DNA of 54,872 nucleotides from a virus (IMGVR_UViG_3300009285_002168:1-54872), one strand, 5' to 3'. Shown: positions 7,418-26,640, numbered from the stretch's first letter. The notes: a model not told the origin generated them from the sequence alone. A program made the numbers and translations.

Positions 7418-8382
7418 TGCCTGTGCAACCTCTCGTAGTGCGCCATCGCCACGGTGATGCTCAGACCACCAGCGGCGGCGTACTCATGCGCACCGATGTC
7501 CCATGGGCTCGTCCTGGCTGTCCCGGTGATGTCGTCGCTGTAGAGTCCGGCCCCTGGATCGTCCGTGCCATTCCCCACGCAACACGGAGCCGTGGTGTAG
7601 TCTTTGAGCGTGAAGTCCCCGTTGGCGTAGTCCGTGAAGACCTTGTTCCAGTCCGTGGCCTCTGCGGTGAAGTCCTGCCCGTTCGTCCCATCACCGTCGT
7701 CCGTGGCGCAGTAGTCGATGGTAACCGTCGCTCCGGTAGTATCAAAATCGTCGGCGTTGTTGAAGACCGCGCAGTTTTTCACGCTGTGTGTTCCGGCGTC
7801 AAACTCAAATCCGTCCGTAACACCTCCGGACTTCGTGCAATTGAAAATGTACGACGTGGCCGCTGCGAATGCATACACTCCGCGGTTGTTCCCGCTGAAG
7901 ATACAGTTCCATATGTATGCTGTCTCGTCTGCGTCCGCAAGCACGACGCCGTAGCTTGATTGCATCCGACAATTACTCACACGCAACCAAGCACCAGCCG
8001 CAATGTTCGCTACGTTCACCCCATACTTTGTGTCGTTGGCTGTTATCTGAAGACCATCAATCCAGACATGGTTGTCGTAGACATTGAGAGCGTACGAGGC
8101 TCCCCCGTTAAGGATGTATCGCCCGGTGTCCCACCCGGACGCTTTCGCACGGTTCGCGGAGTTGGTCAGTATCTTGAGGTAGCACGTATCGCTAGTTGTG
8201 AATCCGTTCACCGTCACCGCCGTCGTGTCTGCCCCTGCCGACCAGTCACCCTCAATGGATATGGTCAGTATTCCGCCCATCGTCACAAGGTTTGCATTGG
8301 CTGTCACTTCTCCCGTGATGGCATCTTGCAGAGTCGTGTACGTTCCTCCGCTCGGTTTGACGGTGACGGTCTTGTCAGCCAA
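7414..8382 (-). CDS. Right-handed beta-helix protein (pectate lyase-like fold)
   Basis: This 322-residue protein has a TTG start at 8382, two bases after the previous stop. After an N-terminal GGTYTTLQDAI motif, common at the start of phage beta-helix proteins, it has recurring rungs such as DGLQITAN, NCRMQSSYGV, NCIFSGNNRGV, NCTKSGGV and NCAVFNNAD. It ends with WDIGAHEY, often seen in these folds. Such proteins bind or cleave polysaccharides. Its place upstream of the capsid genes suggests a head or neck appendage. No catalytic residues can be assigned. Confidence 0.75.
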   Translation of the reverse strand: MADKTVTVKPSGGTYTTLQDAITGEVTANANLVTMGGILTISIEGDWSAGADTTAVTVNGFTTSDTCYLKILTNSANRAKASGWDTGRYILNGGASYALNVYDNHVWIDGLQITANDTKYGVNVANIAAGAWLRVSNCRMQSSYGVVLADADETAYIWNCIFSGNNRGVYAFAAATSYIFNCTKSGGVTDGFEFDAGTHSVKNCAVFNNADDFDTTGATVTIDYCATDDGDGTNGQDFTAEATDWNKVFTDYANGDFTLKDYTTAPCCVGNGTDDPGAGLYSDDITGTARTSPWDIGAHEYAAAGGLSITVAMAHYERLHRQ

Positions 8383-8384
8383 GT

Positions 8385-8819
8385 TTACATCCCCGAATCC
8401 CGCAAGGCCGCTGGGCGCTTCGGCATCCCCGAGGGGCTGTAGACGAAAGGGCCGTCAACCCCCGCGTCCGCAATCACGTCGCTCCACGCGATGGTCGAGT
8501 AGCTCAGGTTCCCCCCGCCGTCCACGAGCCTGACGCGCACCCCCGCGATCCACGTCGCCCGGCGCGGGAAGGTGATGAGCATGGACGTGCCCGAGGTCGA
8601 GCCCACCAGCGTCAGCACACCGACGTCCTGCGGGTCCACGAGCGAACCCGCGTATATGTAGACTTCATACGCGATGGTGTCTCGGGGGAGCAACGGAGCC
8701 CCGCTCGCGTCCAACGTCACCGCGTCCCACTCCAGTGTGGCCGAGGTCTTGTAGATCACTTCCTGCCCACACGCCCCCAGCGCCACAAGCAGGAACAGCC
8801 CCGCAAGTAGCTTCCTCAC
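8385..8819 (-). CDS. Predicted lipoprotein with a fibronectin-like domain
   Basis: The 144-residue product starts at GTG 8819, overlapping the previous stop (GTGA). Residues 1-20 form a lipoprotein signal peptide (MRKLLAGLFLLVALGACG) with lipobox LGAC. The remainder is beta-rich with a fibronectin-III look (YEVYIYAGSL, TWIAGVRVRLVDGGGNLSY). A lipoprotein made within the head operon would act in the host envelope, possibly for superinfection exclusion, but that is inference. A longer upstream start would read through the small membrane gene. Confidence 0.6.
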   Translation of the reverse strand: MRKLLAGLFLLVALGACGQEVIYKTSATLEWDAVTLDASGAPLLPRDTIAYEVYIYAGSLVDPQDVGVLTLVGSTSGTSMLITFPRRATWIAGVRVRLVDGGGNLSYSTIAWSDVIADAGVDGPFVYSPSGMPKRPAALRDSGM

Positions 8820-8989
8820 GGCTTCGCCTTCTCCGGGATCATGCTCAGCACGAGCTGCACCGCCCCAATCAGCAGCGCGCCCGCCGTCGGCCACCATGTA
8901 ACGTGCGCCCCCAGCGCCTCCAGGAGCCCCGTCACCGCGCCGATTGCCCAGGGAAGAACTTTGCCGACGACCGCTTTCCAATTCTTCAT
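8816..8989 (-). CDS. Small two-helix membrane protein
   Basis: The 57-residue product starts at ATG 8989. Two hydrophobic stretches (VLPWAIGAVTGLLEALGA and AGALLIGAVQLVLSMI) suggest two membrane spans with a short C-terminal KAKP tail. Size and layout are compatible with a small holin-like or envelope protein. It overlaps the downstream lipoprotein gene by 4 bases, so the two are probably translated together in the host membrane. Confidence 0.5.
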   Translation of the reverse strand: MKNWKAVVGKVLPWAIGAVTGLLEALGAHVTWWPTAGALLIGAVQLVLSMIPEKAKP

Positions 8990-9003
8990 CTCGCTCTCCC
9001 TTC

Positions 9004-9408
9004 CTACTTCACTACCGTGTACGTCATCGTATTCGCCGACACCGCTGCTCCGGCCGAAATGGCTACCGCGTTCATGTTCAGATCGCACCCCGCGGTGCCC
9101 ACCGTGCCGTCCAGCACCACCGTAGTCCCATCCGCCTCCAAAGCCCGGAACCACGTGGCTGTGTCCCCGCCCACCGCGGAGGCATCCGGGGTCAGCGCCG
9201 CGAACGTAATCACTCCGTCCACCACGCTGGTCTCGGCCACTGCGGCAAACCGCAGCTCCGCAAGCTTCGTCTGCCCGCTCACGGCCGTGTCCGCTGTAGC
9301 AGGCTGGCTCCCCGAGTAGAGCCGCAGGTACCCACTCGCCAGCGCATCGGCTATCACCTGCGCCTGCGCCGTCGCGATTGCATTCGTCAGGTTCAGGTTA
9401 CTGGCCAT
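9004..9408 (-). CDS. Conserved siphophage structural protein (unknown role)
   Basis: This 134-residue protein begins MASNLNLTNAIATAQAQVI and continues with ASGYLRLYSGSQPATADTAV, a pattern I recognise from a widespread but uncharacterised protein of siphoviral head/neck operons. It is small, beta-rich and uncharged, consistent with a virion component. It overlaps the end of the portal-MuF gene by 11 bases. Confidence 0.6.
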   Translation of the reverse strand: MASNLNLTNAIATAQAQVIADALASGYLRLYSGSQPATADTAVSGQTKLAELRFAAVAETSVVDGVITFAALTPDASAVGGDTATWFRALEADGTTVVLDGTVGTAGCDLNMNAVAISAGAAVSANTMTYTVVK

Positions 9409-11764
9409 CCGGTTCCTCCTCGTTCACTTCCGTGATCCGCACCTTGGCTATGCTCCCCTTCTCGTCGCGCGTGATCGCCATGTCGCGCACCCGAGCGTGT
9501 TTCAAGACATGGATTTTCAGTGGCGCAAGCTGTTCGACTTCCGCGGCCCGCGTCACTTCTGGCGCCTCGTGAGCCTGGTGCGTCTTCGCCTCTGGGAAAA
9601 CGGGCAGGCCAAGGCACCGACAGTTGCAAATTTCCTCGGGCGGCCCCTCCGGATCGTTGGGATACAGGAGCCCGTTTCGGAACTTCTCGCCGATCTTCAC
9701 CTTGTCCCCGTCGATCATGTGAGAGGGGCGCACCTTCTCGTCCTGAGCCGAGAGCCACTCCGTCTCCTCGAAACCCTCCGATTTGAACGAAGCATACCGG
9801 CTGTCACCGATAATCCCGCCAAGCTCCGTGCGCGCGATGGTTTTCGCCCGCCCCTTGCCGACGTCGTAGACGTGCCGGATGTCGTCGGCCATCTGGTCTA
9901 TCGTCCGACCCTCTCGCTGCCCGGTCTCGATAGCATCCCGCAGTTGCTTCCGCACGGTATTCGTGATGTCCGCAAGGGTCCCCTGGTTAACTCTCCGGTC
10001 CAGGTACTTCGGAGCATCCGTGTCGTAGATGTCGAAAGCATCGGCCCTATCGAGCAGCCCCGCGTCCCTCAGCAGTTGCTCGACGTCCTTGCCGGTCTGG
10101 TCCATGGTCTTCCCGAAGTCTTCGCCGCTCAGAGCCTTCAACTTCGCGAGTTGATCTTTCCAGTAGCTCGCCCCGAACTGGCCGTCGAACGTCTGGATGT
10201 CCGGCGTCTTCAACGTCTTCCCGCCAACCAGCTCTTCCAGAATGCGGCTCCGCTGCGCGAAGAGCCACGCCTGTAGCGCCTTGGTGTAGTGGCGCTCTAC
10301 CCTGTCGCGCCAAGCGATCATGGCTTTCCAGTGCGCGTCCCGATACTCCGCAGGCCAGGACCGCACCACGTGGCCGTTCCCTCCGGGGCTCTTGCCCCCT
10401 TCGGCAAGCTCCCGAACCTGCTCCAGTGACAGCCCGAGAAGCGCCTGAGCCGGCACGAGCGTCGGTCGCGGGGTCACGTTGCGCTCTCCGGCCGTCTTCG
10501 GAGTCTCCTCCTCGGTCGCGCCGTTGCTGCCGGCAGGGGCCATCGAGAACGGAATCCACCATACCTTCCCCCAGGGGACAGGCTTCATCCCGCGCCTCTC
10601 GCGGTACTCGTCTATCGTCAGCGCTCCGGCCCGGACCTCTTCAAGCTCTCGCTTAGTAACTGCCTCATCGTCTTCCTTCAACTCGGCGATCTCGGACAGA
10701 TCGAACCGGCCCGTCATCGAAAGGCCGAAGCGCCCAAAGAAGTCCGTCCTCAGCTTGTCCTCATACGCCTTGGTCTTGGGGGTCAGTGTCAGTGTCCAGA
10801 ACTGCTTCAACTGCTCCTGGAGGTCCTTCCCGGAAAACGCGGTGGCGTCCTCCTTGATCCCAATCGCTCCGAGCGGCACACCATAGCGCGCGAGGATCAT
10901 CGCCCGCGTGAACTTCCTCAGCGGGATGTAGTCCATCTCCTGGGGTGTCCTCTGGATCGACTGGTACTTCGTCCCGCTGCCCAGCACCGAGATGCGGTGC
11001 CGCCGGCTCATCCCCTTGTGCTCGTCCTCCCACATCTGCCGGTACAGCTTCGCCTGATCCATGGTCAGCGACTGATCCGATGACAGCACACCGCTCGGCG
11101 TCGAGTCGTTCTCGAACATCTTCCGCGTCGAGCGCGCCGCGTTCCAATCCGCAATCGCTTCCTCGCTCAAAGCCAGAAGCGGACTGACCCCTCGCCACTC
11201 GTCCCACGGATTCCAATCGCGGAAATGGATGATCTGGTCTGGCATGTAGGGAATCTTTTCGCGTTTGTACTCGTATTCCCACATCATGATCTTCGTGCCC
11301 TCGGGGTTCAGGTGGTGCTTAAACCGCGACGGGTTGGGTGTCCAGATCTCCTGCGGGAAAGCACGGGCACTCCCGGCGAAGTCGCGCTCGAAGACCCAGA
11401 TGGCCTCCCCGCGCGTGGACATCCAGCTCTCGGTGGCCTCCCACAGCTCGTAACGCGAAGCGTTCGCGTTCACGTCGCTGAAGAGCTTCCACACTGGCCC
11501 GGAGACGACCTCGGTCTCCCCCTGGTATAGCCTGAACGGCGCCCGGGCCAGGTTCGATGCAAGCGCAGTCACGGCGATGTTGACCCACGGCTGTTGCCGC
11601 ATCGGGTCCGTCATGACAGAGCCCTCGGTCGAATCCTCGTCAAGCGCCAGCTTCATGAACCGCACGAACCAGTCAGGATCGTATGAGGTTTTCCCCGCGA
11701 TACCGCTGGCGATACGATTTATGACCGCGTGCCGAATCGAATCCAGGAACCGCTGCTTAGCCAT
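9398..11764 (-). CDS. Portal protein fused to MuF-like minor head protein
   Basis: This 788-residue protein combines two modules. Residues 1-420 match HK97-type portal proteins: DPDWFVRFMK, NPSRFKHHLNPEG, IIHFRDWNPWDEWRGVSPL, then the crown and stem helices. From about 560 on lies a Mu gpF-like minor head domain: GQREGRTIDQMADDIRHVYDV, RAKTIARTELGGIIGDSRY and ICNCRCLGLPVF, the latter with conserved Cys. The portal forms the DNA entry ring; MuF-type proteins are often injected or structural. The fusion is complete with no internal stop. Confidence 0.9.
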   Translation of the reverse strand: MAKQRFLDSIRHAVINRIASGIAGKTSYDPDWFVRFMKLALDEDSTEGSVMTDPMRQQPWVNIAVTALASNLARAPFRLYQGETEVVSGPVWKLFSDVNANASRYELWEATESWMSTRGEAIWVFERDFAGSARAFPQEIWTPNPSRFKHHLNPEGTKIMMWEYEYKREKIPYMPDQIIHFRDWNPWDEWRGVSPLLALSEEAIADWNAARSTRKMFENDSTPSGVLSSDQSLTMDQAKLYRQMWEDEHKGMSRRHRISVLGSGTKYQSIQRTPQEMDYIPLRKFTRAMILARYGVPLGAIGIKEDATAFSGKDLQEQLKQFWTLTLTPKTKAYEDKLRTDFFGRFGLSMTGRFDLSEIAELKEDDEAVTKRELEEVRAGALTIDEYRERRGMKPVPWGKVWWIPFSMAPAGSNGATEEETPKTAGERNVTPRPTLVPAQALLGLSLEQVRELAEGGKSPGGNGHVVRSWPAEYRDAHWKAMIAWRDRVERHYTKALQAWLFAQRSRILEELVGGKTLKTPDIQTFDGQFGASYWKDQLAKLKALSGEDFGKTMDQTGKDVEQLLRDAGLLDRADAFDIYDTDAPKYLDRRVNQGTLADITNTVRKQLRDAIETGQREGRTIDQMADDIRHVYDVGKGRAKTIARTELGGIIGDSRYASFKSEGFEETEWLSAQDEKVRPSHMIDGDKVKIGEKFRNGLLYPNDPEGPPEEICNCRCLGLPVFPEAKTHQAHEAPEVTRAAEVEQLAPLKIHVLKHARVRDMAITRDEKGSIAKVRITEVNEEEPDGQ

Positions 11765-11779
11765 GCTGGCCCCCGCTGC

Positions 11780-11854
11780 CTACCCAATTATGGGTGGGTA
11801 CGCCGCCGGCTGAGGTTCCGACATTTTCTCGAACAGAACTTGCCTCGATGACAT
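11780..11854 (-). CDS. Possible 24-residue leader-type ORF between terminase and portal
   Basis: ATG 11854 follows ACGGAG and the frame ends in TAG 16 bases before the portal start. The peptide is MSSRQVLFEKMSEPQPAAYP plus four residues. A small stem (TACCCA pairing with TGGGTA) overlaps its end. No homology is known; it could be a translational leader for the portal gene or chance. Confidence 0.25.
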   Translation of the reverse strand: MSSRQVLFEKMSEPQPAAYPPIIG

Positions 11855-11892
11855 ATACTCCGTCTCTGATCCTGCTCCCGAGGGTCAGTCGC

Positions 11893-13122
11893 TCAGCCAC
11901 GGCTCAACACCTTTTCGCTCTCATCCCGCTCGCCGGTGTAGAGGATGATCCCGCGCGAGGCATGCGAGAACGTCCCGTACCGCCCGCTGTCGATCAAGTG
12001 ATCGTTCTCCTTGATGATCCGCCCCACCTCGTCCTTCCGGTAGTCGTAGATTTCCGCGATCCAGCCACGGCAGCGACGGTGAACGCGGAACAGCCCCTTC
12101 TCCATCTTCGCGCTCAGCCAGTCGAGACCGGACTCGACGCTGTTGTTCGCCTTCAGCGCGCCGATCTCCTGGAGCCGCTCTCCGCCGGACGGGTCCCCGT
12201 AGGCAGCGTACTGGTACGCCTTCCACTTCCGTCGCATGGCCTCTCCAAACGTGCTCGTCGTCGCGTGAAACATGGCGAGCTCGTCCAGGAACCACACCTC
12301 CTCGCCCCTCCAGCCGATGAGCACCGCGGCCATGTTCAGGCCGAAGTCCAGCCCAACCGTGAACTGCTCGAAGTCCGTCGGCACCTCGTCCACGATCATG
12401 CTGTCCTCGAAGTGGTTCAGGATCATGCCCTCCGGCCGCACCCACTCCCCGTCGCGGAGCCGTCTCCGGTCCCGCTCGGGCAGGTTGTCGAGGATGTCAT
12501 GCATGTAGTTCGGAGGCAGGTTGGCCAGGTTGTCCACCGGGTTCAACGACAGCGCCCCCCACAGATCTGGCGTCTCCAGCGGCTTGCCGCTCTTTGGATC
12601 GACCTTCTCGATGAACAGCTTGTGTGCCCAGTGCATCGGCGACGGCGGGTTGCAGTCGAAATACGCCACGCACCGCATGCCCTCTATGTGCTGCGCCAGC
12701 CGGGTGAGCCCGAGGATCACGGCATCGTAGCTGATCTGCGACACCTCGTTGAAAAGTAGGCTCGCATATTCGTGACCGAGGAGCTTCTCAATCCGCTCCT
12801 TGTCATCAAACCCGCCAACCCAAATCTCTGACCCATTCGGGAAGCGCACCATCGGTTCTGAGTGGTTCAGGTGCGCCCCCTCGACGTTCCTAAGTAGCGG
12901 TAAGAGGGTCTCCAACCAGAGACTCGTCCTGGCATGCGACAGGTACAGCCGCGCCATGAGATGCCTGCTCCCTGGGTATTTCAGCGCACGCTTGAGGATC
13001 GCCAGCGTCAGGACGAGCGTCTTGCCGCTCCGGGTCCCCCCGTGAAGCAGCACCCCGAGGTGCCCGTTGCCGAGCAGTTTCACTGCCTCTGCCTGGCGCT
13101 TTGTCAGAGTCAGCGTCTTCAC
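11893..13122 (-). CDS. terL: Terminase large subunit
   Basis: This 409-residue packaging motor has an ATPase domain with Walker A GGTRSGKT (residues 28-35), Walker B LLFNE (about 122-126, catalytic Glu) and a coupling segment around YFDCNPPSPMHW. The C-terminal nuclease domain starts with TVGLDFGLNMAA (about 255-266, metal-binding Asp) and continues with AYGDPSGGERL. Length and motifs fit the PBSX/T4-type family. It overlaps the preceding small subunit by 4 bases. Confidence 0.93.
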   Translation of the reverse strand: MKTLTLTKRQAEAVKLLGNGHLGVLLHGGTRSGKTLVLTLAILKRALKYPGSRHLMARLYLSHARTSLWLETLLPLLRNVEGAHLNHSEPMVRFPNGSEIWVGGFDDKERIEKLLGHEYASLLFNEVSQISYDAVILGLTRLAQHIEGMRCVAYFDCNPPSPMHWAHKLFIEKVDPKSGKPLETPDLWGALSLNPVDNLANLPPNYMHDILDNLPERDRRRLRDGEWVRPEGMILNHFEDSMIVDEVPTDFEQFTVGLDFGLNMAAVLIGWRGEEVWFLDELAMFHATTSTFGEAMRRKWKAYQYAAYGDPSGGERLQEIGALKANNSVESGLDWLSAKMEKGLFRVHRRCRGWIAEIYDYRKDEVGRIIKENDHLIDSGRYGTFSHASRGIILYTGERDESEKVLSRG

Positions 13123-13493
13123 AGCTTGTCGAATCCTTCCGGGAACATGATCGTCAACGCCCCGCCGTCCGCCCCGGTGATCTCGTGGCGCTGCATCGGC
13201 AGGCCGAAACCGTACTCCAGGAAGAGCCTCGCAGCCGGCGCACTCCCGTGGATACCCTGATTGAAGAGCGTCACCGCGAGCACCCGCAGACGCTCGACGT
13301 GCTGCTGTTTGCCCTCCACGGTGATCTTCACCCGCTCCATGGCGATCTCTTGGAACACCTCGGTGACGAACCGCTTGCCCTTCGAGGCGCCGGCTGGATT
13401 CCCCGAGAAGCCCTTCAGTAGCCGCCCCTTTGCATCGCGCTTCGGCTTGGTAGCGTTCAGCGGTGTCTTCAACGGCAGGTCTGCTTTGCCCAA
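13119..13493 (-). CDS. Small terminase-like protein (DUF5681 family)
   Basis: This 124-residue protein has a TTG start at 13493 preceded by GAAGGGA. The N-terminal motif KRDAKGRLLKGFSGNPAGASKG is the DUF5681 signature often encoded just before large terminases. The remainder is helical and fits a small terminase DNA-recognition subunit. It is the first gene after the terminator at 13533-13576 and overlaps the large subunit start by 4 bases. Confidence 0.65.
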   Translation of the reverse strand: MGKADLPLKTPLNATKPKRDAKGRLLKGFSGNPAGASKGKRFVTEVFQEIAMERVKITVEGKQQHVERLRVLAVTLFNQGIHGSAPAARLFLEYGFGLPMQRHEITGADGGALTIMFPEGFDKL

Positions 13494-13532
13494 ATCTTGC
13501 TTCCCTTCATGCTACCACGATTCCGAGCTCCC

Positions 13533-13576
13533 AAAACAGAAAGGCCGAGGGCCACGGTTTCCCGCGATCCTCGGCC
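13533..13576 (-). terminator. Rho-independent terminator upstream of the packaging genes
   Basis: On the - strand, GGCCGAGG pairs with CCTCGGCC (8 bp), enclosing an inner stem CGCGG/CCGTG closed by a GAAA tetraloop, then TTTCTGTTTT. This is a textbook intrinsic terminator. It lies between repeat array A and the small terminase, so it should end transcription from the DUF115 and repeat region before the late operon, or attenuate it. Confidence 0.8.
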
Positions 13577-13679
13577 TCCGTCTTCGGTTGGCTCGGCTAT
13601 GTCGTCACTGATCTCTCGGTCGATTCGCTCGGTTTATCCGTCGCTCCCCCGCCGCTCCCTGAACCTTACACCCTCGGGT

Positions 13680-13856
13680 CTACGCTGTCAAGAGGATAGT
13701 TCGCTCGCCGAGCATGGGTGTCTCGGGTTGACTGGCTCGCTCGCTGTCAATGGGTGTCTCACCGACCTTGGCTCGCTCAACCTTCTTGGGTGTCTCTTGA
13801 GAGATGGCGCGCTCCTGCCGTGTGGGTGTCTCGGCTTCGATGGCTCGCTCGTTCAT
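13680..13856 (-). CDS. ORF of the ETP/ERA repeat, array A
   Basis: A 58-codon frame in the same phase as the other repeat ORFs, starting at the in-frame ATG in MNERAIEAETP and ending ERTILLTA. Units follow ETPxxxERAxxx. It would be continuous with the C-terminus of the 13893-14255 gene if not for one TAG at 13893-13895. No good ribosome site precedes the ATG, so it may be a decayed C-terminal extension rather than an independent gene. Confidence 0.35.
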   Translation of the reverse strand: MNERAIEAETPTRQERAISQETPKKVERAKVGETPIDSERASQPETPMLGERTILLTA

Positions 13857-13904
13857 CGTGGGTTTCTCTTCGTCCCTGGCTCGCTCGCCAACCTATGGTG
13901 TCTC
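13697..13904 (-). repeat. 18-bp-periodic ETP/ERA repeat array A
   Basis: Twelve half-units at exact 18-base spacing (+ strand): constant 10-mers TGGCTCGCTC and TGGGTGTCTC alternate, separated by 8-base spacers that all differ. The edges are degenerate (TAGTTCGCTC at the left, ATGGTGTCTC at the right). On the - strand the array reads ETPxxxERAxxx in the frame of the upstream gene, whose last three residues are ETP. Confidence 0.92.
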
Positions 13905-14255
13905 GGGCGTAATCTCCGCTGGATTCTTACTCCACCAACAGATTGTTTTTCCCTTCTCATCCACCCGTCCGATCCACCTGACGTTCCACCAGTCACACAT
14001 CGTAGGGCAATACATTACCCCCGGCGCAGGATAGGGAGAGTAATGCTCTGCTGGATACAATCCCACCCCGCAAAACGCACACTCCTCTCCGTTCGCATCC
14101 TTGTGGACTGAATACATATCCCTGCCAAGATCGAACCCGACGACCATCCCTTTTTCCTTGCCGTTCACATCCAACACCAGCCGATGATCGGCCGTTGGCC
14201 GGAACAGAAGCACCGTGCCCCTATGCTCAGTTACGACCCCCGCTTCGTTCTCCAT
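13893..14255 (-). CDS. Small protein ending in the first ETP of repeat array A
   Basis: This 120-residue protein has a cysteine-rich middle (ECAFCGVGLYPAEH then MYCPTMCDWW), suggesting a zinc site. The last residues are EITPETP, where ETP is the first unit of array A, and a TAG falls in the following variable codons. This suggests the repeat was once appended in frame to its C-terminus. Function unknown. A 30-base gap separates it from the upstream zinc-ribbon gene. Confidence 0.6.
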   Translation of the reverse strand: MENEAGVVTEHRGTVLLFRPTADHRLVLDVNGKEKGMVVGFDLGRDMYSVHKDANGEECAFCGVGLYPAEHYSPYPAPGVMYCPTMCDWWNVRWIGRVDEKGKTICWWSKNPAEITPETP

Positions 14256-14715: not shown

Positions 14716-15067
14716 GGTCTGCCCCCCTTCCCGTCCCTCGATCTGCTTCCTCCGGCTCTCGCGGAATGGCGCCGGTCTGCCCTTTCGGCGGGGCCTTGCC
14801 GGGTGGGCCATGGAGCACGGTCTCCACAAACTCCTCCGCGAAGGTCTCAAGCTCCGCCGCCTTCCCCAGCTTCTCCGCGAACGCCTGCCCCGCAAACATG
14901 TGGAGCATCGTCAGCTTCAGTGCCCCTGGCACCCCGGCCGCGTACCGCTCCAGCGCCTCGACCGGCATCTTGAAGTGCTTCCGAAATCTCGTGCCGCCAG
15001 TGGCCCGGAGCGCCATACACGCCTTCTCGATCTCGACCATCTCAGCACGGAGTCTCGGCACGGTCAC
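14705..15067 (-). CDS. Helical protein of unknown function after DUF115
   Basis: The product has 120 residues from GTG 15067, which overlaps the stop of the DUF115 gene (GTGA). It is strongly helical with AQ-rich and Glu-rich stretches (KLGKAAELETFAEEFVETV) and a Lys/Pro tail. Its tight coupling suggests a role with the DUF115 protein. Confidence 0.6.
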   Translation of the reverse strand: MTVPRLRAEMVEIEKACMALRATGGTRFRKHFKMPVEALERYAAGVPGALKLTMLHMFAGQAFAEKLGKAAELETFAEEFVETVLHGPPGKAPPKGQTGAIPREPEEADRGTGRGADHGI

Positions 15068-16329
15068 GGCATGCTCTTGTGAAGCCGCTCGAACCACGCC
15101 AGGTTGGCCTCTACGTCGATGGCCTCCTGCGCGGTGTCCTGATTGACCTTCAGCATGTACTTCGTCAGCGCCTCCCGCCAGCGCTCCGGCTCCCCGAGGT
15201 CCGCGAACCGTACTCCACCCTTCTTGAACCGCACACAGTAGTTGCCCACCCGCACCAGGTAGCGCTCGCAGGCAAGCATCTGCTCCTCGTTCGTCCTGCG
15301 CATGGTCTCGGGTATCTGCCCGCCCGATGCGATCATCTCCTCCGGGGCGATGTAGGGAACCTCGCTGATCGTACTATGCGGTGTCGCGCTGATCAACTGC
15401 ATCGGCTCATCCCGGTGGCATTCCAGCCGAGCCACGCAGAACATCGCGCGCTTGTAGAACAGGTTCATAGCGGTCGACGGATAGCCGTTCTCGCTCATGA
15501 CGATGGGCTGACTTTCGGGAGGAGGCGCCGTGATCCCCTCTTGCACCCACTCCCCAGCTTCCCAGTGCCAACCACGAAACCGATAGCGTGCGGGAAGCCC
15601 ACCGTCACCATCGCGCGTGAAGCCGAAATTGTGCCCGAGCATGAAGATCGGATTGTACCCGATGGCCCGCCCGATACCAAGCTCGGCGGCCGGTGAACAC
15701 GCGAAGGGGAGTAGTGCCATCTTGATGAAGTCGTAGGCTGTCGGCCAGATGCTCCAGTAGAGCGGGATCGCGGGATCGCGCGGCAGGTAGTAGTACGACT
15801 TCTGCGGCCACTTGGAGATCAGGTCCGGGTGCGTCCCTGGGTAGGCCGCCTGAACCGTCCCCGGAGCATCCTCCCACCACCCAGGGGGCACCTTGTCGAT
15901 TTCCTCCCAGTTGCATCGCACGTCGCTGTAGACGATGTGCGTCGGCCGCACACCGAAGCGCGCGAGCGTCTGCGCGTGGGACGAGCTGCAAATCAGCCCG
16001 CCTTTCCAGTCCTTCAGCATCGGCAGCACTTCGTCCAGCCCGGGGCCAGAACCCAGGATTACGGCTGGTCCCTTCTGCGTGTCCTCCAGGTCCTTCAGAT
16101 CGAAACCACGTCGGCCTCTCCACCCCGGGTCGTCATCGGCGTCCTGGAAGTCGAGCCAGATCTGCTTGTGGTTCCAGAACGAATGCCGGATCTCATCCGG
16201 CATGATCGCCGAGACGGTCGCCTGGTTGTAGTGCCTGGAGGGGTAGAAGAGATCGAACTCCGATGCCGCCTTCTTCGGCTCCACCGAGTCAACTGCCGGT
16301 TCTATACCAACTCCTTCGGTAATGCTCAT
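15064..16329 (-). CDS. DUF115 / MAF-type protein
   Basis: This 421-residue protein has a Rossmann-like motif GPAVILGSGPGLDEVLPMLK (about residues 87-106), followed by SSHAQTLARFGVRPTHIVYSD, matching the DUF115 family (MptE-like / motility accessory factor). Members take part in flagellin glycosylation with nonulosonic acids or act as pterin pyrophosphokinases, and phages often carry one near the terminase. Later segments (LGHNFGFTRDG) are also typical. It overlaps the nucleotidyltransferase-like gene by 41 bases, hinting at joint function. Substrate unknown. Confidence 0.75.
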   Translation of the reverse strand: MSITEGVGIEPAVDSVEPKKAASEFDLFYPSRHYNQATVSAIMPDEIRHSFWNHKQIWLDFQDADDDPGWRGRRGFDLKDLEDTQKGPAVILGSGPGLDEVLPMLKDWKGGLICSSSHAQTLARFGVRPTHIVYSDVRCNWEEIDKVPPGWWEDAPGTVQAAYPGTHPDLISKWPQKSYYYLPRDPAIPLYWSIWPTAYDFIKMALLPFACSPAAELGIGRAIGYNPIFMLGHNFGFTRDGDGGLPARYRFRGWHWEAGEWVQEGITAPPPESQPIVMSENGYPSTAMNLFYKRAMFCVARLECHRDEPMQLISATPHSTISEVPYIAPEEMIASGGQIPETMRRTNEEQMLACERYLVRVGNYCVRFKKGGVRFADLGEPERWREALTKYMLKVNQDTAQEAIDVEANLAWFERLHKSMP

Positions 16330-17137
16330 ATGCCTCGATTCCTCCTATGTGCTTCTCGAACAAGTGCTCCGCCAACTCCCACTCCCATTCGTAGTCGATG
16401 TGCACCTCTTGCCACGGCTCGACCTCGAACCGCCAGGGGTGCATGTCCATGTACTGCGGGAGCTGGAGCGCCGCTCCCACGTGAGACGCCTCGTAGAACC
16501 GCGGTGTCATCGCGCAAAACGTGTTCATGGTCGTCCAGTTTTCCGCGTACCGCAGATTGCCCGTTTGTTCTATCCGGTAGTGATGCAACGCCCGGTCTCC
16601 GATAGACCCGTAGAACGTCCCTTCCGTCCGCGCGAACGACGTCATGAACTCGACACCCGTAACCGCGTCCGGGTTGGGCGAGGCGAGCTTCTTCGCGAAC
16701 TCCTCGACGAGCCGATCCAGGTCGCCGGGCATCCTCAGCGGGCTCACCACGAAGTCCGTCATCAGGATGTTGATGTTCCGCAAACGGCTCTTTGCCCACT
16801 CGTAGCCGTACCGGCAAGGGAAGCTCCCCGAGTCCTGCGTCGGGTGGTTCATGGTCTCCGGCCGCACTATCACTGTCAGTCGGTCCATCACTCCGGGGCA
16901 CCCCGGCTCCATGGCGCGCAGGGTCTTGAGAATCGCATCCTCATGCTCTGGCGTCTCCCCTACGAGGATAGACTGCGAGATGTGCTTTGACGCCCATGAC
17001 TGGATCGCCCACCACTCGTCGAGCGTCCTCCCGCACAAGAGCCGCGTGAGTTTGTCCGGGAGGCGCTCAGCCGGATTTCTATGCCCGTCCCGCGTCGGCG
17101 CGACCCTCACCACCATCATCTCTTTCCCTTGATTCAT
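16289..17137 (-). CDS. Cytidylyltransferase-like (GT-A fold) protein
   Basis: This 282-residue protein has an N-terminal pattern (APTRDGHRNPAERLPDKL, then LLCGRTLDEWW, then ILVGETPEHED) that follows the order P-x-R ... LP-x-K ... GkpL ... V-D-x-pE of sugar-nucleotide cytidylyltransferases. The end, EVHIDYEWEWELAEHLFEK, resembles the C-terminal motif of CMP-sialic/pseudaminic synthetases. The classical ARGGSK loop is altered, so activity is uncertain. It overlaps the DUF115 gene and follows the sugar transporter genes, supporting a sugar-nucleotide role. Confidence 0.5.
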   Translation of the reverse strand: MNQGKEMMVVRVAPTRDGHRNPAERLPDKLTRLLCGRTLDEWWAIQSWASKHISQSILVGETPEHEDAILKTLRAMEPGCPGVMDRLTVIVRPETMNHPTQDSGSFPCRYGYEWAKSRLRNINILMTDFVVSPLRMPGDLDRLVEEFAKKLASPNPDAVTGVEFMTSFARTEGTFYGSIGDRALHHYRIEQTGNLRYAENWTTMNTFCAMTPRFYEASHVGAALQLPQYMDMHPWRFEVEPWQEVHIDYEWEWELAEHLFEKHIGGIEAYEHYRRSWYRTGS

Positions 17138-17162: not shown

Positions 17163-17978
17163 TCACAGCTTCACTCCCTCACCGCCAGTGAACCACCGAT
17201 AGCCCACCGCGAAAACGCCCAGCATCGGCAGGAGCATCGCCGTCGCGATGGCCATCTTAAGCCCGTACCCGTGAGGCTTCCACATCGCCGGAGACATGAT
17301 CGTGCTCATCAGCCCGACGATGAGCGTTTGCTTCCGCTCGTCCGGCATCACCAACGATTGCCACAGATAGTCCTGCAAGGCGCCGAGACCCGTGAACGTC
17401 AGGACCAGCGCTATCACCGATCCGCTCATGGGCAACACGATGCTCCAGAGGATGCGCCACTCGCCGGCTCCCGCTATCCGCGCGTCGTCGAAATAGTCCC
17501 CGCCGATCCTGAGTAGATGCGCCCGCGAGTAGAGAATCCCAAGCGGGGATACCGCCAGCGGAAGCACCGCCGCTACCACTCCTGTCCCAAGCCCTATCAG
17601 CCGCAACGTGAGAAACCTCGGGATCACGAAAATCATCATGGGCACTATCGCCCCGAACATCGTCATCCCGACGACCACCCGGTGCCCCAGGAATTTGTGA
17701 GCCAGCGCGTAGCCAGCGGCCACCGCCGTAACCGTCGCGCTGGATACAGACAAGACCGTGACCAGGAGCGTCATCGCGGCCCACCCTGGGATGAGCATCC
17801 CCTCCGTCCAGATGATTCGGTAGTTGTCGAACGTCAACGATCCAGGAGCGATAGACGGGGGGATCCTCATCGTACCTATTCCGCCTGCCTGGAAACTCCC
17901 GAGCACCATGACACCAGTCGGCAGGAGTAGCACGACTGCGAAAAGCACCACGAAGGCAATCCCGATTATCCGACCCAC
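17163..17978 (-). CDS. ABC sugar transporter permease (MalG-like)
   Basis: The product has 271 residues from GTG 17978, which overlaps the end of the other permease by 13 bases. An N-terminal membrane helix (IIGIAFVVLFAVVLLLPTG) is followed by five further spans. The coupling motif is present as DDARIAGAGEWRILWSIVLP, a slightly altered EAA loop. MalG-type subunits pair with a MalF-type subunit to form the channel. The third subunit needed, an ATPase, is not encoded in the window, so a host ATPase would be required. Confidence 0.85.
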   Translation of the reverse strand: MGRIIGIAFVVLFAVVLLLPTGVMVLGSFQAGGIGTMRIPPSIAPGSLTFDNYRIIWTEGMLIPGWAAMTLLVTVLSVSSATVTAVAAGYALAHKFLGHRVVVGMTMFGAIVPMMIFVIPRFLTLRLIGLGTGVVAAVLPLAVSPLGILYSRAHLLRIGGDYFDDARIAGAGEWRILWSIVLPMSGSVIALVLTFTGLGALQDYLWQSLVMPDERKQTLIVGLMSTIMSPAMWKPHGYGLKMAIATAMLLPMLGVFAVGYRWFTGGEGVKL

Positions 17979-18814
17979 TTCCTCACCCTCTGTACCACTC
18001 CCGCAATCGCCATGACCACTCCGAGTAGGACCACGCTCTGCGCCGCGGCCATCCCGTATCGCTGGCGCGTGAAAGCTGACTCCCATGCCGCGTAGATCGC
18101 CGTGGCCGTGGCCCCATCGGGCCCTCCTCGGGTCAGGACCCACGGCGTCTCCCACATGGTGAAGCCGGACGCGAGCCCCGAGAGAGCCATCAACGCAACC
18201 GCTCCCGATACCCACGGCAGATCGACGTACCGCCAAACCTGCGACGCCGATGCCCCATCCAACCGCGCCGCTTCCCGCAGCTCCTTCGGCACCCCTTCAA
18301 GCGCGCTCCCCAGCACCACTACTACCGTTCCGACAATCGCCAGTTGTACCGTACATCCGATCACGAATATCGCCGGCCAACGCTCCGTCAGCCACCGCAC
18401 CGGCGCAAGCCCAAGACCCCCCATCACAGCGTTTGCCAACCCTCCGCTCGCGAACACCATGAGCCACATCTGCGAGATGATGATCCCGGCAGATATGCTC
18501 GGGAGGTACATCGCGGCGCGTACGATCCCTCTGATCTGCTTGGGCATCCCCGAGGTCGGGAACGCCACAGCCGCGCCAAGTCCTACCCCGAGCACGATAG
18601 AGAGAGCGCTGTAGATGAGGCTGTTGACGAGTGCCGTCGTCCAGTGCGGGTCTCGGAACATTTCCACGTAGTTCCGCAGACCGATCCAGGACGAGGTAAG
18701 GAGCGAGCTGTCTTGAAACGAAAGAGCCGCGACACCGGCAAGCGGCGCTACCCACAAAAGCAGTAGCAGTAGCGCCGCTGGGGCGACCATGGCGAGGTGC
18801 GCCGGTCGTGTCAT
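17966..18814 (-). CDS. ABC sugar transporter permease (MalF-like)
   Basis: The product has 282 residues from ATG 18814, overlapping the binding-protein stop (ATGA). The first span is MVAPAALLLLLLWVAPLAG; the periplasmic SFQDSSLLTSSWIGLRNYVE is typical of the family. The EAA coupling loop is clear (LREAARLDGASASQVWRYVD then LP). It ends with a basic tail. Its length and six spans match carbohydrate CUT1-type permeases. Confidence 0.88.
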   Translation of the reverse strand: MTRPAHLAMVAPAALLLLLLWVAPLAGVAALSFQDSSLLTSSWIGLRNYVEMFRDPHWTTALVNSLIYSALSIVLGVGLGAAVAFPTSGMPKQIRGIVRAAMYLPSISAGIIISQMWLMVFASGGLANAVMGGLGLAPVRWLTERWPAIFVIGCTVQLAIVGTVVVVLGSALEGVPKELREAARLDGASASQVWRYVDLPWVSGAVALMALSGLASGFTMWETPWVLTRGGPDGATATAIYAAWESAFTRQRYGMAAAQSVVLLGVVMAIAGVVQRVRKWVG

Positions 18815-20157
18815 TTTCCGGCCAGAATCTCGTTGACACGCTTCTCGTACGTGGCGAGTGCCGCCTCCGGCGTGGTCTTTCCGTTGTACAACTCGACGAG
18901 TCGCGGGAAGAGCTCGCCCCGGATTGCAGAGTATCCGGATAGCGTGTAGCCCACGTCCATGATCCCCGCTTTCTGCACGATCTCGTTGACCACCTTCCAC
19001 GCCGCCACGTCCTCGGCGCTTCCGTTCGGTACCTCCGCCACCCCTCGTATCGTCGGCCAACTGCCACCTATCGAGGCCATCGTCTCATCCTGGTAGGCAC
19101 GGTCACCGAGAGCCGCCGCGAGCTGGCCCGCAAAGCTATCGAGCCTGCCGTTGCCGCTCTCCCCCACCACCGCAGTCGATCCGGCGCCGAGGGTCGGGAC
19201 CGCCGGCACACCCGGGCCGCGAGGGAAGGGGTACATCACCCAGCGGAAAGCCTTCGCGATCATCTTCTGATCGAGCGCCCCTTTCATGAACGCCGCCACC
19301 CAGTCCGGTCGGATCGGCATGGCCGCCACGATCCCGCGCTGCCAGAGCTCCAGCGCCGCATCGTCCCACAGTTCCGCGCTGTCCATCGGCGCGTATCCCT
19401 TCTGGACGAGCGCTTGGAGAAACCGCAGCGTCGCCACTCCCTGCGCGCTGTTGATCGCTGTCCGCGTGTAGTCCCCTCCGACGAACACCTGCGCACCGAA
19501 TGAGCCGAACCAGTTCATCCACAGGTAATCCGCGGAGGCGCTCTTGGCGAAGAGCGCTGTCCCCCACTTGCCGGGGAGCTTCGCCTTGACCGCCTCGCAC
19601 ATGGCCAGGAAAGCATCAATCGTCCAGTCCTTCGCGTCAGGCAGTTTGTAGCCCGCCGCGTCGAGCAGATCGAGATTGAGCGCGATCCCCTGGAGCGGAA
19701 CGACACCCGGCACACCGAGCAGCAGCCCTCCGCGCTGCCACGGTACGAGATCAAAGTAACCCTTCACGTCCACGTACGGCGTGAGGTCCATCGCCTTCCA
19801 CCCCGCCGTTCGGATCATGAACCGCGAGGCCCTCCCAGTGAAATCGTTGTAGACGTTCGGGTACGCCCCGGCCGCAACCAGCGTGTCCATGCTGATCGTT
19901 GTACCGTCGGCCAGGTTCAGATTGAGCCAGCGCACCGCCAGCTCCACCGGCTTCGACCGCTCGATCAGGCGAGCGATGGCCGTGTCGTATTGCGGCCCTT
20001 TGCCGCCCAGTAGAGTCAGCGTCACCCGCTCGGGTTCCGGCCCCTTCTCCTTCTTGGTCAGATACAGCTTCCCGTTTTCCACATTGGGCGACGCCCAGGC
20101 CAGGCCAGCGACAACCATCGCCAACAGAAACCACACCGCGCTCTTCACACTCCTCAC
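18811..20157 (-). CDS. ABC sugar-binding protein (solute-binding family 1)
   Basis: The product has 448 residues from GTG 20157, chosen because GGAGGAGG lies 5 bases upstream. A signal peptide occupies about residues 1-22 (SAVWFLLAMVVAGLAWA), without a lipobox, so it is likely secreted or periplasmic. The mature part has the fold of family 1 carbohydrate-binding proteins: ALNLDLLDAAGYKLPDAKDW, WMNWFGSFGA, a hinge near AAMPIRPDW, and a C-terminal helical EVVNEI segment. It heads a three-gene operon with both permeases. Substrate unknown. Confidence 0.85.
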   Translation of the reverse strand: MRSVKSAVWFLLAMVVAGLAWASPNVENGKLYLTKKEKGPEPERVTLTLLGGKGPQYDTAIARLIERSKPVELAVRWLNLNLADGTTISMDTLVAAGAYPNVYNDFTGRASRFMIRTAGWKAMDLTPYVDVKGYFDLVPWQRGGLLLGVPGVVPLQGIALNLDLLDAAGYKLPDAKDWTIDAFLAMCEAVKAKLPGKWGTALFAKSASADYLWMNWFGSFGAQVFVGGDYTRTAINSAQGVATLRFLQALVQKGYAPMDSAELWDDAALELWQRGIVAAMPIRPDWVAAFMKGALDQKMIAKAFRWVMYPFPRGPGVPAVPTLGAGSTAVVGESGNGRLDSFAGQLAAALGDRAYQDETMASIGGSWPTIRGVAEVPNGSAEDVAAWKVVNEIVQKAGIMDVGYTLSGYSAIRGELFPRLVELYNGKTTPEAALATYEKRVNEILAGK

Positions 20158-24093: not shown

Positions 24094-24163
24094 TTCCTCT
24101 CTCCTTCCGCCGGCCAGATTGGCCGGCTGATTCTGTTGGCGATGGCTACTGCCTCGCCGTGCT

Positions 24164-24731
24164 TGGCTCGCTCGCAAGCCTTGGGTGTCTCGCACGTGAT
24201 GGCTCGCTCCTCCACTTTGGGTGTCTATCCGTTCTTGGCTCGCTCCTCGATCCTGGGTGTCTCGTCGGTACTGGCTCGCTCCTGGTTCGTGGGTATCTCG
24301 TTTTGCCTGGCTCGCTCTTCGCGAATGGATGTCTCGGCCCCCATGGCTCGCTCATGCCTCTTGGGTGTCTCATCTCTGATGGCTCGCTCGTAGGACATGA
24401 GTGTCTCCCCTACCCTGGCTCGCTCCCAACCGTTGGGTGTCTCACAGGCCACGGCTCGCTCCTCTCGACTGGGTGTCTCTGACTCCCTGGCTCGCTCTGT
24501 GCCGTTGGGTGTCTCCATCACGATGGCTCGCTCCTCGATCCTGGGTGTCTCCGGAATGTTGGCTCGCTCGTCACGACTGGGTGTCTCGTGGCTCCTGGCT
24601 CGCTCGTCCCGCCTGGGTGTCTCGCCAAAGGTGGCTCGCTCACTTGTTCTGGGTGTCTCATGGAAGATGGCGCGCTCCCCGACACTGGGTGTCTCGTTGA
24701 ACGTGGCTCGCTCGCCGAGCGTGGGTGTCTC
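24164..24731 (-). repeat. 18-bp-periodic ETP/ERA repeat array B (main array)
   Basis: Thirty-two half-units at perfect 18-base spacing alternate TGGCTCGCTC and TGGGTGTCTC (+ strand), separated by 8-base spacers. All spacers differ except CTCGATCC, which occurs twice, both times after TGGCTCGCTC. A few cores are mutated (TGGATGTCTC, TGAGTGTCTC, TGGGTGTCTA, CGGCTCGCTC, TGGCGCGCTC). The right end is TGGCTTTCAT, which holds the start codon of the repeat ORF. Confidence 0.95.
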
Positions 24732-24749
24732 GAGCGAAATGGCTTTCAT
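24225..24749 (-). CDS. Repeat protein (ETPxxxERAxxx)n
   Basis: The product has 174 residues from ATG 24749, one base after the stop of the IS110-like gene. After MKAISL, it is 12-residue repeats ETP-xxx-ERA-xxx, about 14 copies, with three variable residues in each half. It stops because a core base change turns a GAG codon into TAG; three more half-units lie beyond. The protein is charged, with Pro every 12 residues, and probably extended. It shares MKA-xxx-ETP with the start of the IS110-like gene. Function unknown; the repeat may act at DNA or RNA level instead. Confidence 0.6.
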   Translation of the reverse strand: MKAISLETPTLGERATFNETPSVGERAIFHETPRTSERATFGETPRRDERARSHETPSRDERANIPETPRIEERAIVMETPNGTERARESETPSREERAVACETPNGWERARVGETLMSYERAIRDETPKRHERAMGAETSIREERARQNEIPTNQERASTDETPRIEERAKNG

Positions 24750-24750
24750 C

Positions 24751-25683
24751 TCAGGCGCTGTGCTTCTTGTTCAGGTATTCCTCCTGGTACGACGGCCGCA
24801 CCTCCAGCCCCTCCAGCGTCCGCCACGCCACGTATAGATCGCGCAGGAAGCACTTGACCATGTAGCGGTTCGCTGCTTTATGTTGGTGCCCCGCCTTCGG
24901 CCGCTTCGGGTCCGTCGGGTTCTTGCTCGCCGTCCCCCAGTCGCTCGACTCCAGCCGGTGCTTCATGTCGTCGTAATACCTCCGGTAGGGGCTGTTCGAT
25001 TTCAGGAACGATGACCCGAGCACCCCGAGCATCTTCGCCTTCAAGAACGAGTTGAAGGGGCAAACGAACCCCTTCGCCTTCTTGTCCCCCCGGATCATGT
25101 CCTCTGTCGCGACGAGGGTCCGCTCTCCTCCCTTCTTTTTCCATACCTTGCCGTGGACCTGCCCTGGGTTCATCCCGCTGAACTGCCACATTTTGCTCAC
25201 GGTCGTGGCGATGTAGATGTTGAACTGAGTGATGATGACAGCGGTCATCATCTCGCCGACGCCCTTCACGTCGCGGAGGAAGTCGATCCAGAGCGGGTGC
25301 TTGCGGATCAGCCGACCAACCTCCAACTCCATCTCGTGCTCCAGTGCGAGGATGCTGTCTCGGCGCTTCAGGAGGATGACGAGCATTCCAGGGTCACGGT
25401 CGGGACGGCCCTTTTTTGCCTCGCCGTCCTTGGTCATCCCGAGCTGGCCGTCCAGTGCCGTGCGCTCCTCCTGGTAATCGTAAAAGCAGCGCGTGAAGAT
25501 GCGAAGCGATTCCATCTGCTCGGGGGTGAAGATGCGCTCAGGTGTTCTGGGTGTCTCCGGTGTCCTGGCTCGCTCGCTCGCGCTGGGTGTCTCTACTTGT
25601 ATGGCTCGCTCGCTCTCAATGGGTGTCTCAACTCCGTTGGCTCGCTCTTTCTGCGTGGGTGTCTCGTGATCCTTGGCTTTCAT
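24751..25683 (-). CDS. IS110-transposase-like protein with ETP/ERA repeat N-terminus
   Basis: This 310-residue protein has three parts. Residues 1-48 carry ETP/ERA repeats (MKAKDHETP...) continuous with array C. About 58-125 form a helical region (RIFTRCFYDYQEERTAL). About 130-300 resemble the IS110/IS116 C-terminal Transposase_20 domain: helix-hairpin-helix RDVKGVGEMMTAVII, then KMWQFSGMNPGQVHGK, KAKMLGVLGSSFLKSNSPYR and a C-terminal helix. The RuvC-like DEDD N-terminal domain of IS110 is absent. It is coupled to a ParB-like gene upstream and to the repeat ORF downstream. Mobility is not shown. Confidence 0.65.
   Translation of the reverse strand: MKAKDHETPTQKERANGVETPIESERAIQVETPSASERARTPETPRTPERIFTPEQMESLRIFTRCFYDYQEERTALDGQLGMTKDGEAKKGRPDRDPGMLVILLKRRDSILALEHEMELEVGRLIRKHPLWIDFLRDVKGVGEMMTAVIITQFNIYIATTVSKMWQFSGMNPGQVHGKVWKKKGGERTLVATEDMIRGDKKAKGFVCPFNSFLKAKMLGVLGSSFLKSNSPYRRYYDDMKHRLESSDWGTASKNPTDPKRPKAGHQHKAANRYMVKCFLRDLYVAWRTLEGLEVRPSYQEEYLNKKHSA
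25548..25683 (-). repeat. ETP/ERA repeat array C, encoding the N-terminus of the IS110-like protein
   Basis: Seven half-units at 18-base spacing plus the start unit TGGCTTTCAT (25674-25683), which contains the ATG. Spacers differ from those of arrays A, B and D. On the - strand the phase is exactly that of the other repeat ORFs, giving MKAKDHETPTQKERANG and so on. Confidence 0.92.
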
Positions 25684-25685
25684 CT

Positions 25686-26390
25686 TCACACCTTGACCTT
25701 CGCCACGATCTCGCGGATCGCCTCGGCCAACTCCGTGAGCACCGCGATGGACTTCGCGTCGTACTCGATAGAGCCGTAGGCCCGCAGCGCTTTCAGCAGC
25801 ATGTGCGCGTGTGCCATCGGCGGGCTCCCGTTCGCCGTCCTTGCAAAATGCTCCTGTTCGGCATCCGCCTTCTTCCCGTCCAGATGCTTCACAAGCTCCA
25901 CCGCCGCCGCGGACACGGCGATCTTGCTCCCGTCCTGGGTCGTCAGCGACCGGCCCTCCACGAGCGTCCGGCACCGCTCCACGTCCATGTCCAGAGCTTC
26001 CGCGATCCGCGGCCACGGCACATGATCCCGGCGCATCCCGAGCGCGAAGTGAGTCACGTCCTTCGGCGTCAGTTGCAGGCTCCCGCTGTTGGCGAAGTGC
26101 GCCGCGTCGATCCTCATGGCGATCTCGTCCGCATACTCGCGCAGCACCACCTCGGTTTCCGCGTCTTCCCCGAGCACGTCCAGGTATGCTCTGCACCGGT
26201 GGAAACCGTCGATGATCCGCAGGCTCGCCGCATCCACGATGATCGGCGTGTTGAACTTGCGCCCCGACTTCAACACCTCGCGGAGCTTGGTGACGTTCGT
26301 TGAGTCGAGTTTCCCCGCTTCATGGCGCGGCCACAAATGCCAATCCTGGATCAGCTCCAGCACCTTTACGGTCTTCGTCTTGTCTCCCAT
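25686..26390 (-). CDS. ParB-like protein (copy 3)
   Basis: The product has 234 residues from ATG 26390. A ParB/Srx core is present: NTPIIVDAASLRIIDGFHRCRAYLDVLG, with GFHR as the family motif. It is followed by a helix-turn-helix-like region (TPKDVTHFALGMRRDHVPWPRIAEALDM) and a helical C-terminus. It ends two bases before the IS110-like start, so the two are probably co-translated. A longer upstream frame would run into array D. Confidence 0.7.
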   Translation of the reverse strand: MGDKTKTVKVLELIQDWHLWPRHEAGKLDSTNVTKLREVLKSGRKFNTPIIVDAASLRIIDGFHRCRAYLDVLGEDAETEVVLREYADEIAMRIDAAHFANSGSLQLTPKDVTHFALGMRRDHVPWPRIAEALDMDVERCRTLVEGRSLTTQDGSKIAVSAAAVELVKHLDGKKADAEQEHFARTANGSPPMAHAHMLLKALRAYGSIEYDAKSIAVLTELAEAIREIVAKVKV

Positions 26391-26487: not shown

Positions 26488-26640
26488 TTACTTTGGAAAT
26501 CGCTCAAATTCTGTGGGTGTCTCCCAATCCTTGGCTCGCTCCAACATGATGGGTGTCTCTCGCTCCTTGGCTCGCTCGCTTTTCTTGGGTATCTCGCCAG
26601 TGATGGCTCGCTCTTCGTGTCTGGGTGTCTCGCATACCAT
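26488..26640 (-). CDS. 50-residue ETP/ERA repeat ORF
   Basis: It starts at ATG 26640 (MVCETPRHEERA) and continues in the same ETP/ERA phase across array D, ending ERFPK. It lies between the helix-turn-helix gene and the ParB-like copy 3. The ATG sits in the position taken by TGGCTTTCAT in the other arrays. No clear ribosome site is visible, so expression is uncertain. Confidence 0.4.
   Translation of the reverse strand: MVCETPRHEERAITGEIPKKSERAKERETPIMLERAKDWETPTEFERFPK
26514..26631 (-). repeat. ETP/ERA repeat array D
   Basis: Seven half-units at exact 18-base spacing with alternating cores (one reads TGGGTATCTC) and unique spacers such as CAACATGA and GCCAGTGA. The next unit on the right is degenerate (TGGCCCGGTT). 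The orientation and reading phase match arrays A, B and C. Confidence 0.9.

Follow-up and report, generated by a model that had tools for sequence, protein, structure and literature searches.

Nonulosonic acids are sialic-acid-like nine-carbon sugars, and NeuB is the synthase that makes them. In CUT1 sugar importers, the EAA loop of the permeases is the docking site of the ATPase. Cyanophage PstS is a known case of an ABC importer component that is carried by a phage and depends on partners from the host, but this is a binding protein alone, for phosphate, with no permeases and no linked pathway.

Among cellular systems, the RafEFG, MalXCD and SatABC importers of streptococci have no ATPase of their own and use MsmK (PMC4519317). 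SatABC (SAT2) of Streptococcus pneumoniae resembles the locus described here in having one substrate-binding protein (SBP), two MalF/MalG-like permeases and no ATPase gene, and is energised by MsmK as a shared CUT1 ATPase (PMC4519317), although the driving of sialic-acid uptake by MsmK is disputed (PMC3302838). SatABC/SAT2 is cellular and catabolic, however, whereas the genes described here are phage-encoded and tied to activation and transfer genes, and their permeases form a sequence group separate from the sampled cellular CUT1 permeases. On the transfer side, Maf enzymes attach nonulosonic acids to Ser/Thr residues of flagellin (PMC11339370).

Sugar modification by phages has also been described. 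Glycosyltransferases of mycobacteriophage Che8 and its relatives are thought to decorate the major capsid proteins (PMC11256854), and mycobacteriophage capsids are reported as glycosylated (cited in PMC11256854); that paper mentions neither an importer nor CMP-nonulosonic acid machinery. The epaA and epaB genes of Acinetobacter baumannii phages likewise act on a nonulosonic acid, but they modify the pseudaminic acid of the host capsule, and neither import nor a Maf-like transferase is mentioned in the abstract of that study (PMC12053666).

The window analysed here, 54,872 bp long, corresponds to a complete virus record of IMG/VR, derived from a metagenome assembly. On its minus strand lie genes for a CUT1-type SBP (18811–20157), a MalF-like permease (17966–18814) and a MalG-like permease (17163–17978). 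All three match their Pfam families above the gathering cut-offs, the SBP matching SBP_bac_8 (42.4 bits, 9.5e-11) and the permeases BPD_transp_1 (28.7 and 34.3 bits). The SBP gene starts with GTG at 20157, preceded by a GGAGGAGG-type site, in a frame that is open to 20178; it overlaps the MalF gene by 4 bp, which in turn overlaps the MalG gene by 13 bp. The N-terminus of the SBP is Sec signal-like, with a hydrophobic helix and a signal-peptide-like stretch at its end. Both permeases carry an EAA loop, EAARLDGA...LP in the MalF-like protein, where it is conserved in 21 relatives, and ARIAGAG...LP in the MalG-like protein, in which alignment with the relatives reveals an Asp to Ala change. Two features of a CUT1 importer are present in the window, namely an SBP of the SBP_bac_1/8 cluster with an export signal and two BPD_transp_1 permeases with EAA loops. 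These results bear out the first-pass annotation, which had called the three genes intact, overlapping and normal in their motifs, with the qualification that the MalG loop is altered.

An AlphaFold2 (AF2) model of the SBP (pLDDT 89.7) has as its best PDB match a cyclic maltosyl-maltose binding protein (7bvt; Z 36.1 over 373 aa, 3.0 Å). The matches of this protein are general oligosaccharide binders, and none among them points to nonulosonic acid.

The grouping of the trio in one operon, as described in that annotation, holds, but the extent of the operon had been underestimated, two downstream sugar genes having been overlooked (16289–17137 and 15064–16329, both on the minus strand). The better-supported explanation for the presence of a transporter, judging from gene content, would lie in these two genes. 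The one nearer to the trio begins 25 bp downstream of MalG and encodes a diverged NeuA/PseF-like nucleotidyltransferase in the position of a CMP-sugar synthetase; the other overlaps it by 41 bp and encodes a Maf/MptE-like (PF01973) protein with a glycosyltransferase fold.

Assignment of the NeuA-like protein of the window rests on its relatives, since it has no Pfam or NCBIfam match of its own. It matches the NeuA-like protein of L001, a related contig, by BLASTP (5e-10), and is 36% identical to the product of the same gene in a second contig, L010. In the L001 and L012 cassettes the corresponding proteins contain a Pfam CTP_transf_3 domain, the best NCBIfam match of the relatives scanned is PseF, the pseudaminic acid cytidylyltransferase (∼1e-26, below the equivalog cut-off), and the best PDB match of their profile is NeuA (6ifd, 1e-30). 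The canonical RGGSxRxPxKN loop retained in most relatives is absent from the window protein, in which the nucleotide-binding loop is altered and Arg25, Lys29 and Asp141 are retained. Because the change is common to the window and L010, the window copy looks like a variant rather than a decayed gene. The altered loop and the lack of a family match imply that its donor may differ, and the enzyme of the window and of L010 could perhaps make a nucleotide sugar other than a CMP-sugar. L001 also has an extra gene for a 397-aa protein between MalG and NeuA (12844–14037), which has no Pfam match at 0.001 and by eye resembles the uroporphyrinogen decarboxylase/methyltransferase family.

The Maf-like protein of the window matches Pfam MptE-like (PF01973) at 1.2e-11. 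Among solved structures, its AF2 model (mean pLDDT 89.7), for which 43 phage sequences were used, best matches the Magnetospirillum Maf glycosyltransferase (5mu5; Z 20.7 over 240 aa, 3.0 Å), to which the sequence profile also matches (8.7e-9). Further matches of the model are an archaeal HPPK (Z 13.0), SteA (Z 8.9) and the CMP-sialic-acid-dependent sialyltransferases ST8SiaIII and CstII (Z 8.6–8.7). A role as a pterin kinase, raised by the HPPK match, was set aside given the linkage of these genes to NeuA, NeuB and PseB. With Maf/PseD the protein thus shares both a Pfam domain (PF01973, DUF115) and a fold, and the phage genes, like those for Maf, neighbour NeuA/PseF-like genes and, in other phages, NeuB or PseB-PseC. 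The window protein is shorter, however (421 aa compared with the 632-residue chain of 5mu5), its gene lies beside phage packaging genes, and it has no match to NCBIfam PseD (FlagModPseD). The relative L164 reaches 31 bits against the PseD cut-off of 670, and we therefore use the name Maf-like and not PseD. From the modelled fold and the neighbouring genes, we infer that the protein is a transferase of nonulosonic acid to Ser/Thr residues of a protein.

The five genes occur in the identical order, SBP-MalF-MalG-NeuA-MptE, in 21 distinct phage contigs, the window included. A scan with the SBP gave the first relative, L001, which has all five genes, and profile scans of IMG/VR with MalG and, independently, with the MptE-like protein gave the others, whose cassette genes were annotated with HMMs built in this analysis. 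A scan of IMG/VR with the single MalF protein gave no matches, and alignment-based scans were required. The total, about 21 distinct cassettes among 2.9 million IMG/VR contigs, is a lower bound because the contigs were found by motif-based scans. The SBPs of the relatives are each 24–35% identical to that of the window, and two more contigs (L023 and L029) end within the cassette, at MalG. A search of 50,697 named phage records gave no match to either the SBP or the MptE-like protein, and the rarity in phages that the first reading had attributed to such transport genes is therefore real. Matches of MalF by tblastn to unannotated 'Listeria phage' and faecal 'Bacteriophage sp.' records were rejected, being below 60% identity (∼32% at best) and probably bacterial DNA.

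Some contigs have other genes interposed between the cassette members. In L033 (2646–4447), the SBP and MalF genes are separated by genes that by eye resemble those for an aldo/keto reductase and a class III aminotransferase, which would fit a further modification of the imported sugar.

The setting of the cassette is that of a tailed phage. The minus strand of the window encodes a large terminase and a portal, a head protease, the major head protein, connectors and a tape measure. Downstream of the cassette follow, on this strand, a DUF5681 protein where a small terminase would be expected (13119–13493; Pfam 3.7e-12), the large terminase subunit, TerL (11893–13122; PHROG 2, 1.5e-31) and a portal protein with a head morphogenesis C-terminal part (9398–11764; PHROG 2662, 1.9e-94). 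TerL, portal or both are recognised beside most cassettes, always on the same strand, and are either directly downstream of the cassette or placed so that the cassette lies between them. In three of the importer-bearing genomes (G002, G006 and G034) the two ends overlap exactly, by 114, 144 and 144 bp, so that these genomes are closed. The matches of TerL and portal point to unrelated phages, and a search of 296 spirochaete genomes gave only weak Maf-like matches, within larger open frames.

The window also contains repeat arrays of 36-nt period (13701–13907, 24128–24744, 25547–25678 and 26500–26595), located near ParB-like genes. Two 10-nt cores, TGGCTCGCTC and TGGGTGTCTC, alternate in these arrays, separated by 8-nt variable spacers, and the minus-strand codons read ERA/ETP. 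Conservation of the cores even at third codon positions makes a role at the DNA or RNA level possible, perhaps as centromere-like sites, a hexapeptide-repeat protein being the other possible reading. One array is overlapped by the gene for a 481-aa protein (24751–26196) that matches PHROG 4285, 'transposase', at 3.8e-38; together with the several ParB-like genes, this protein suggests that the phage may have an unusual mode of maintenance.

Phylogenetic comparison separates the cassette MalG proteins from the sampled cellular sequences. All 21 form one phage-only clade (support 100/100), apart from 80 cellular CUT1 relatives from many phyla, and neither NeuA nor MptE is found in the fetched flanks of the cellular CUT1 loci. 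Four other phage contigs have permeases that fall outside the cassette clade and among the cellular sequences. Three of these (L068, L069 and L070, from IMG/VR) carry CUT1 permease pairs. The fourth, L011, has between its major head protein and a tape-measure-like protein (7935–13108) glycosyltransferase-like genes, an SBP-MalF-MalG trio without an ATPase, and a melibiase (PF02065); this trio is a sugar importer without an ATPase that was acquired independently.

No ATPase gene accompanies the importer. None matching PF00005 is found in the whole 54.9-kb window, as the earlier annotation had noted, and none above the Pfam cut-off in the 40 records searched. A hidden ATPase was considered and found improbable, the only further matches being three below the cut-off, in frames of ∼311 aa; the two of these frames that were read resemble the clamp-loader AAA proteins of DNA polymerase, and the third is in G026. 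With three closed genomes among these 40 records, the missing ATPase is a property of the phages and not an artefact of fragmentary records. We agree, then, that an importer of this kind would need a shared host ATPase, the borrowing itself being a prediction. The EAA loops of both MalF and MalG are retained in 21 of 21 permease pairs, so that the phage permeases look coupled to an ATPase.

A further indication of function comes from records in which the importer is missing. NeuB was found in three of the 38 records searched (G018, G026 and G028), which are NeuA/MptE records that lack the importer and have their upstream side visible, and in none of the importer-bearing records. For this pattern Fisher's test gives p = 0.0005 by record and p = 0.004 by lineage, the NeuB side comprising three records of two lineages. 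These NeuB phages occupy two separate positions in the MptE tree, both within the importer-bearing clade. In G026, which is closed on itself by a 127-bp end overlap, and in its relative G028, several sugar genes including NeuB lie upstream of NeuA, NeuB at a distance of a few kb. In G018, NeuB lies between terminase and portal, where it is accompanied by genes for an aminotransferase, a short-chain dehydrogenase and a cytidylyltransferase. Most simply, the sugar that would be activated by NeuA and transferred by the Maf-like enzyme has two alternative sources, the importer and NeuB.

The sugar islands of G026 and G028 (L152 and L154) contain radical SAM proteins, a SIS-domain isomerase, an aminotransferase and a methyltransferase, with NeuB adjoining NeuA-MptE. 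Among more distant phages that have MptE only, NeuB was found in two of 20 further records, in one of which (G047) the Maf-like gene is beside PseB (1.7e-85), PseC (1.3e-54) and a weak PseI-like gene.

We conclude that the five genes probably constitute a glycosylation cassette by which the phage also provides for its own supply of sugar, and in which import is followed by NeuA-like activation and by Maf-like transfer to a protein, most likely of the virion. In the infected cell, the phage SBP would capture a sugar in the periplasm, and the MalF/MalG pair would dock through its EAA loops on a host CUT1-type ATPase (MsmK-, MalK- or UgpC-like). The imported ligand would be a nonulosonic acid or a closely related sugar, an identity that we infer from the neighbouring genes and not from the fold of the SBP. 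The NeuA-like enzyme would activate this sugar with CTP (in most relatives to a CMP-sugar), and its transfer to Ser/Thr residues would fall to the Maf-like enzyme; the copies in the window are predicted to have corresponding activities. A virion protein is the most likely acceptor, because the cassette adjoins the terminase and portal genes and is on their strand, and because the closed genomes have no integrase. The more specific proposal, that the phages' own permeases and a hijacked host ATPase bring in a sialic-acid-like sugar for the virions in replacement of synthesis by NeuB, we advance tentatively, rating its chances at somewhat below even. To our knowledge the combination of an ATPase-less importer with a phage glycosylation cassette, in place of NeuB, is undescribed, although the gene families are known; no description of such a cassette was found in the literature searched.

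The same import, activation and transfer could instead serve an acceptor on the host surface or flagellum, resulting in receptor change, superinfection exclusion or lysogenic conversion. Known Maf enzymes do modify flagellin (PMC11339370, PMC4065374), and Acinetobacter prophages alter capsule pseudaminic acid (PMC12053666), whereas the cassette sits with packaging and head genes, and the window, like the closed genomes G002, G006 and G034, has neither a tyrosine integrase nor a resolvase. An integrase is present in only one of 27 records (G001). Lysogenic conversion by an integrating temperate phage does not fit these genomes, but it is possible to reconcile both their lack of integrases and the location of the cassette with modification of the host during lytic infection, and we regard a host acceptor, the strongest of the alternatives, as unlikely without being far-fetched. 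The roles first suggested for the transporter were feeding of the infected cell, alteration of the receptor and sensing. As the trio is always followed by NeuA-like and Maf-like genes, and NeuB is found where the trio is missing, sugar supply for glycosylation is better supported than any of these, with a receptor change still possible as its consequence.

Feeding would require that the importer supply sugar carbon to the infected cell and that the two downstream genes be unrelated passengers. The SBP and permeases do belong to a family of CUT1 sugar importers, and the separate phage L011 combines such a trio with an α-galactosidase-like gene, but a five-gene order that is fixed in 21 distinct contigs across deep divergence, with NeuB present where the importer is missing, makes a nutritional function improbable. 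It is more doubtful still that the SBP and permeases have lost transport and, with no ATPase involved, function in sensing, in exclusion or as a decoy; the lack of an ATPase gene in the phage and the Asp to Ala change in the MalG loop of the window would suit such a role, but the EAA loops are retained in both permeases of all 21 cassettes and the modelled SBP has the full CUT1 fold. The trio also resembles cellular CUT1 operons and comes from a metagenome assembly, as would an assembly chimera, feared at the outset, or a contaminating host operon. Such an origin can be dismissed almost entirely, since the same cassette is present in 20 other, independent contigs, three of which close exactly on themselves, the MalG clade is phage-only, and the GC and GC3 contents of the cassette are similar to those of the head genes in the window.

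The preferred reading, of a glycosylation cassette with its own sugar supply, turns what had been noted as a transporter in a phage into a proposal for a pathway of nonulosonic acid import, activation and transfer. If it is correct, a virus would reprogramme membrane transport with only half a transporter of its own, the motor being that of the host, phages would have a route by which to coat themselves in sialic-acid-like sugars, and the PF01973 proteins of phages would gain a concrete proposed function.
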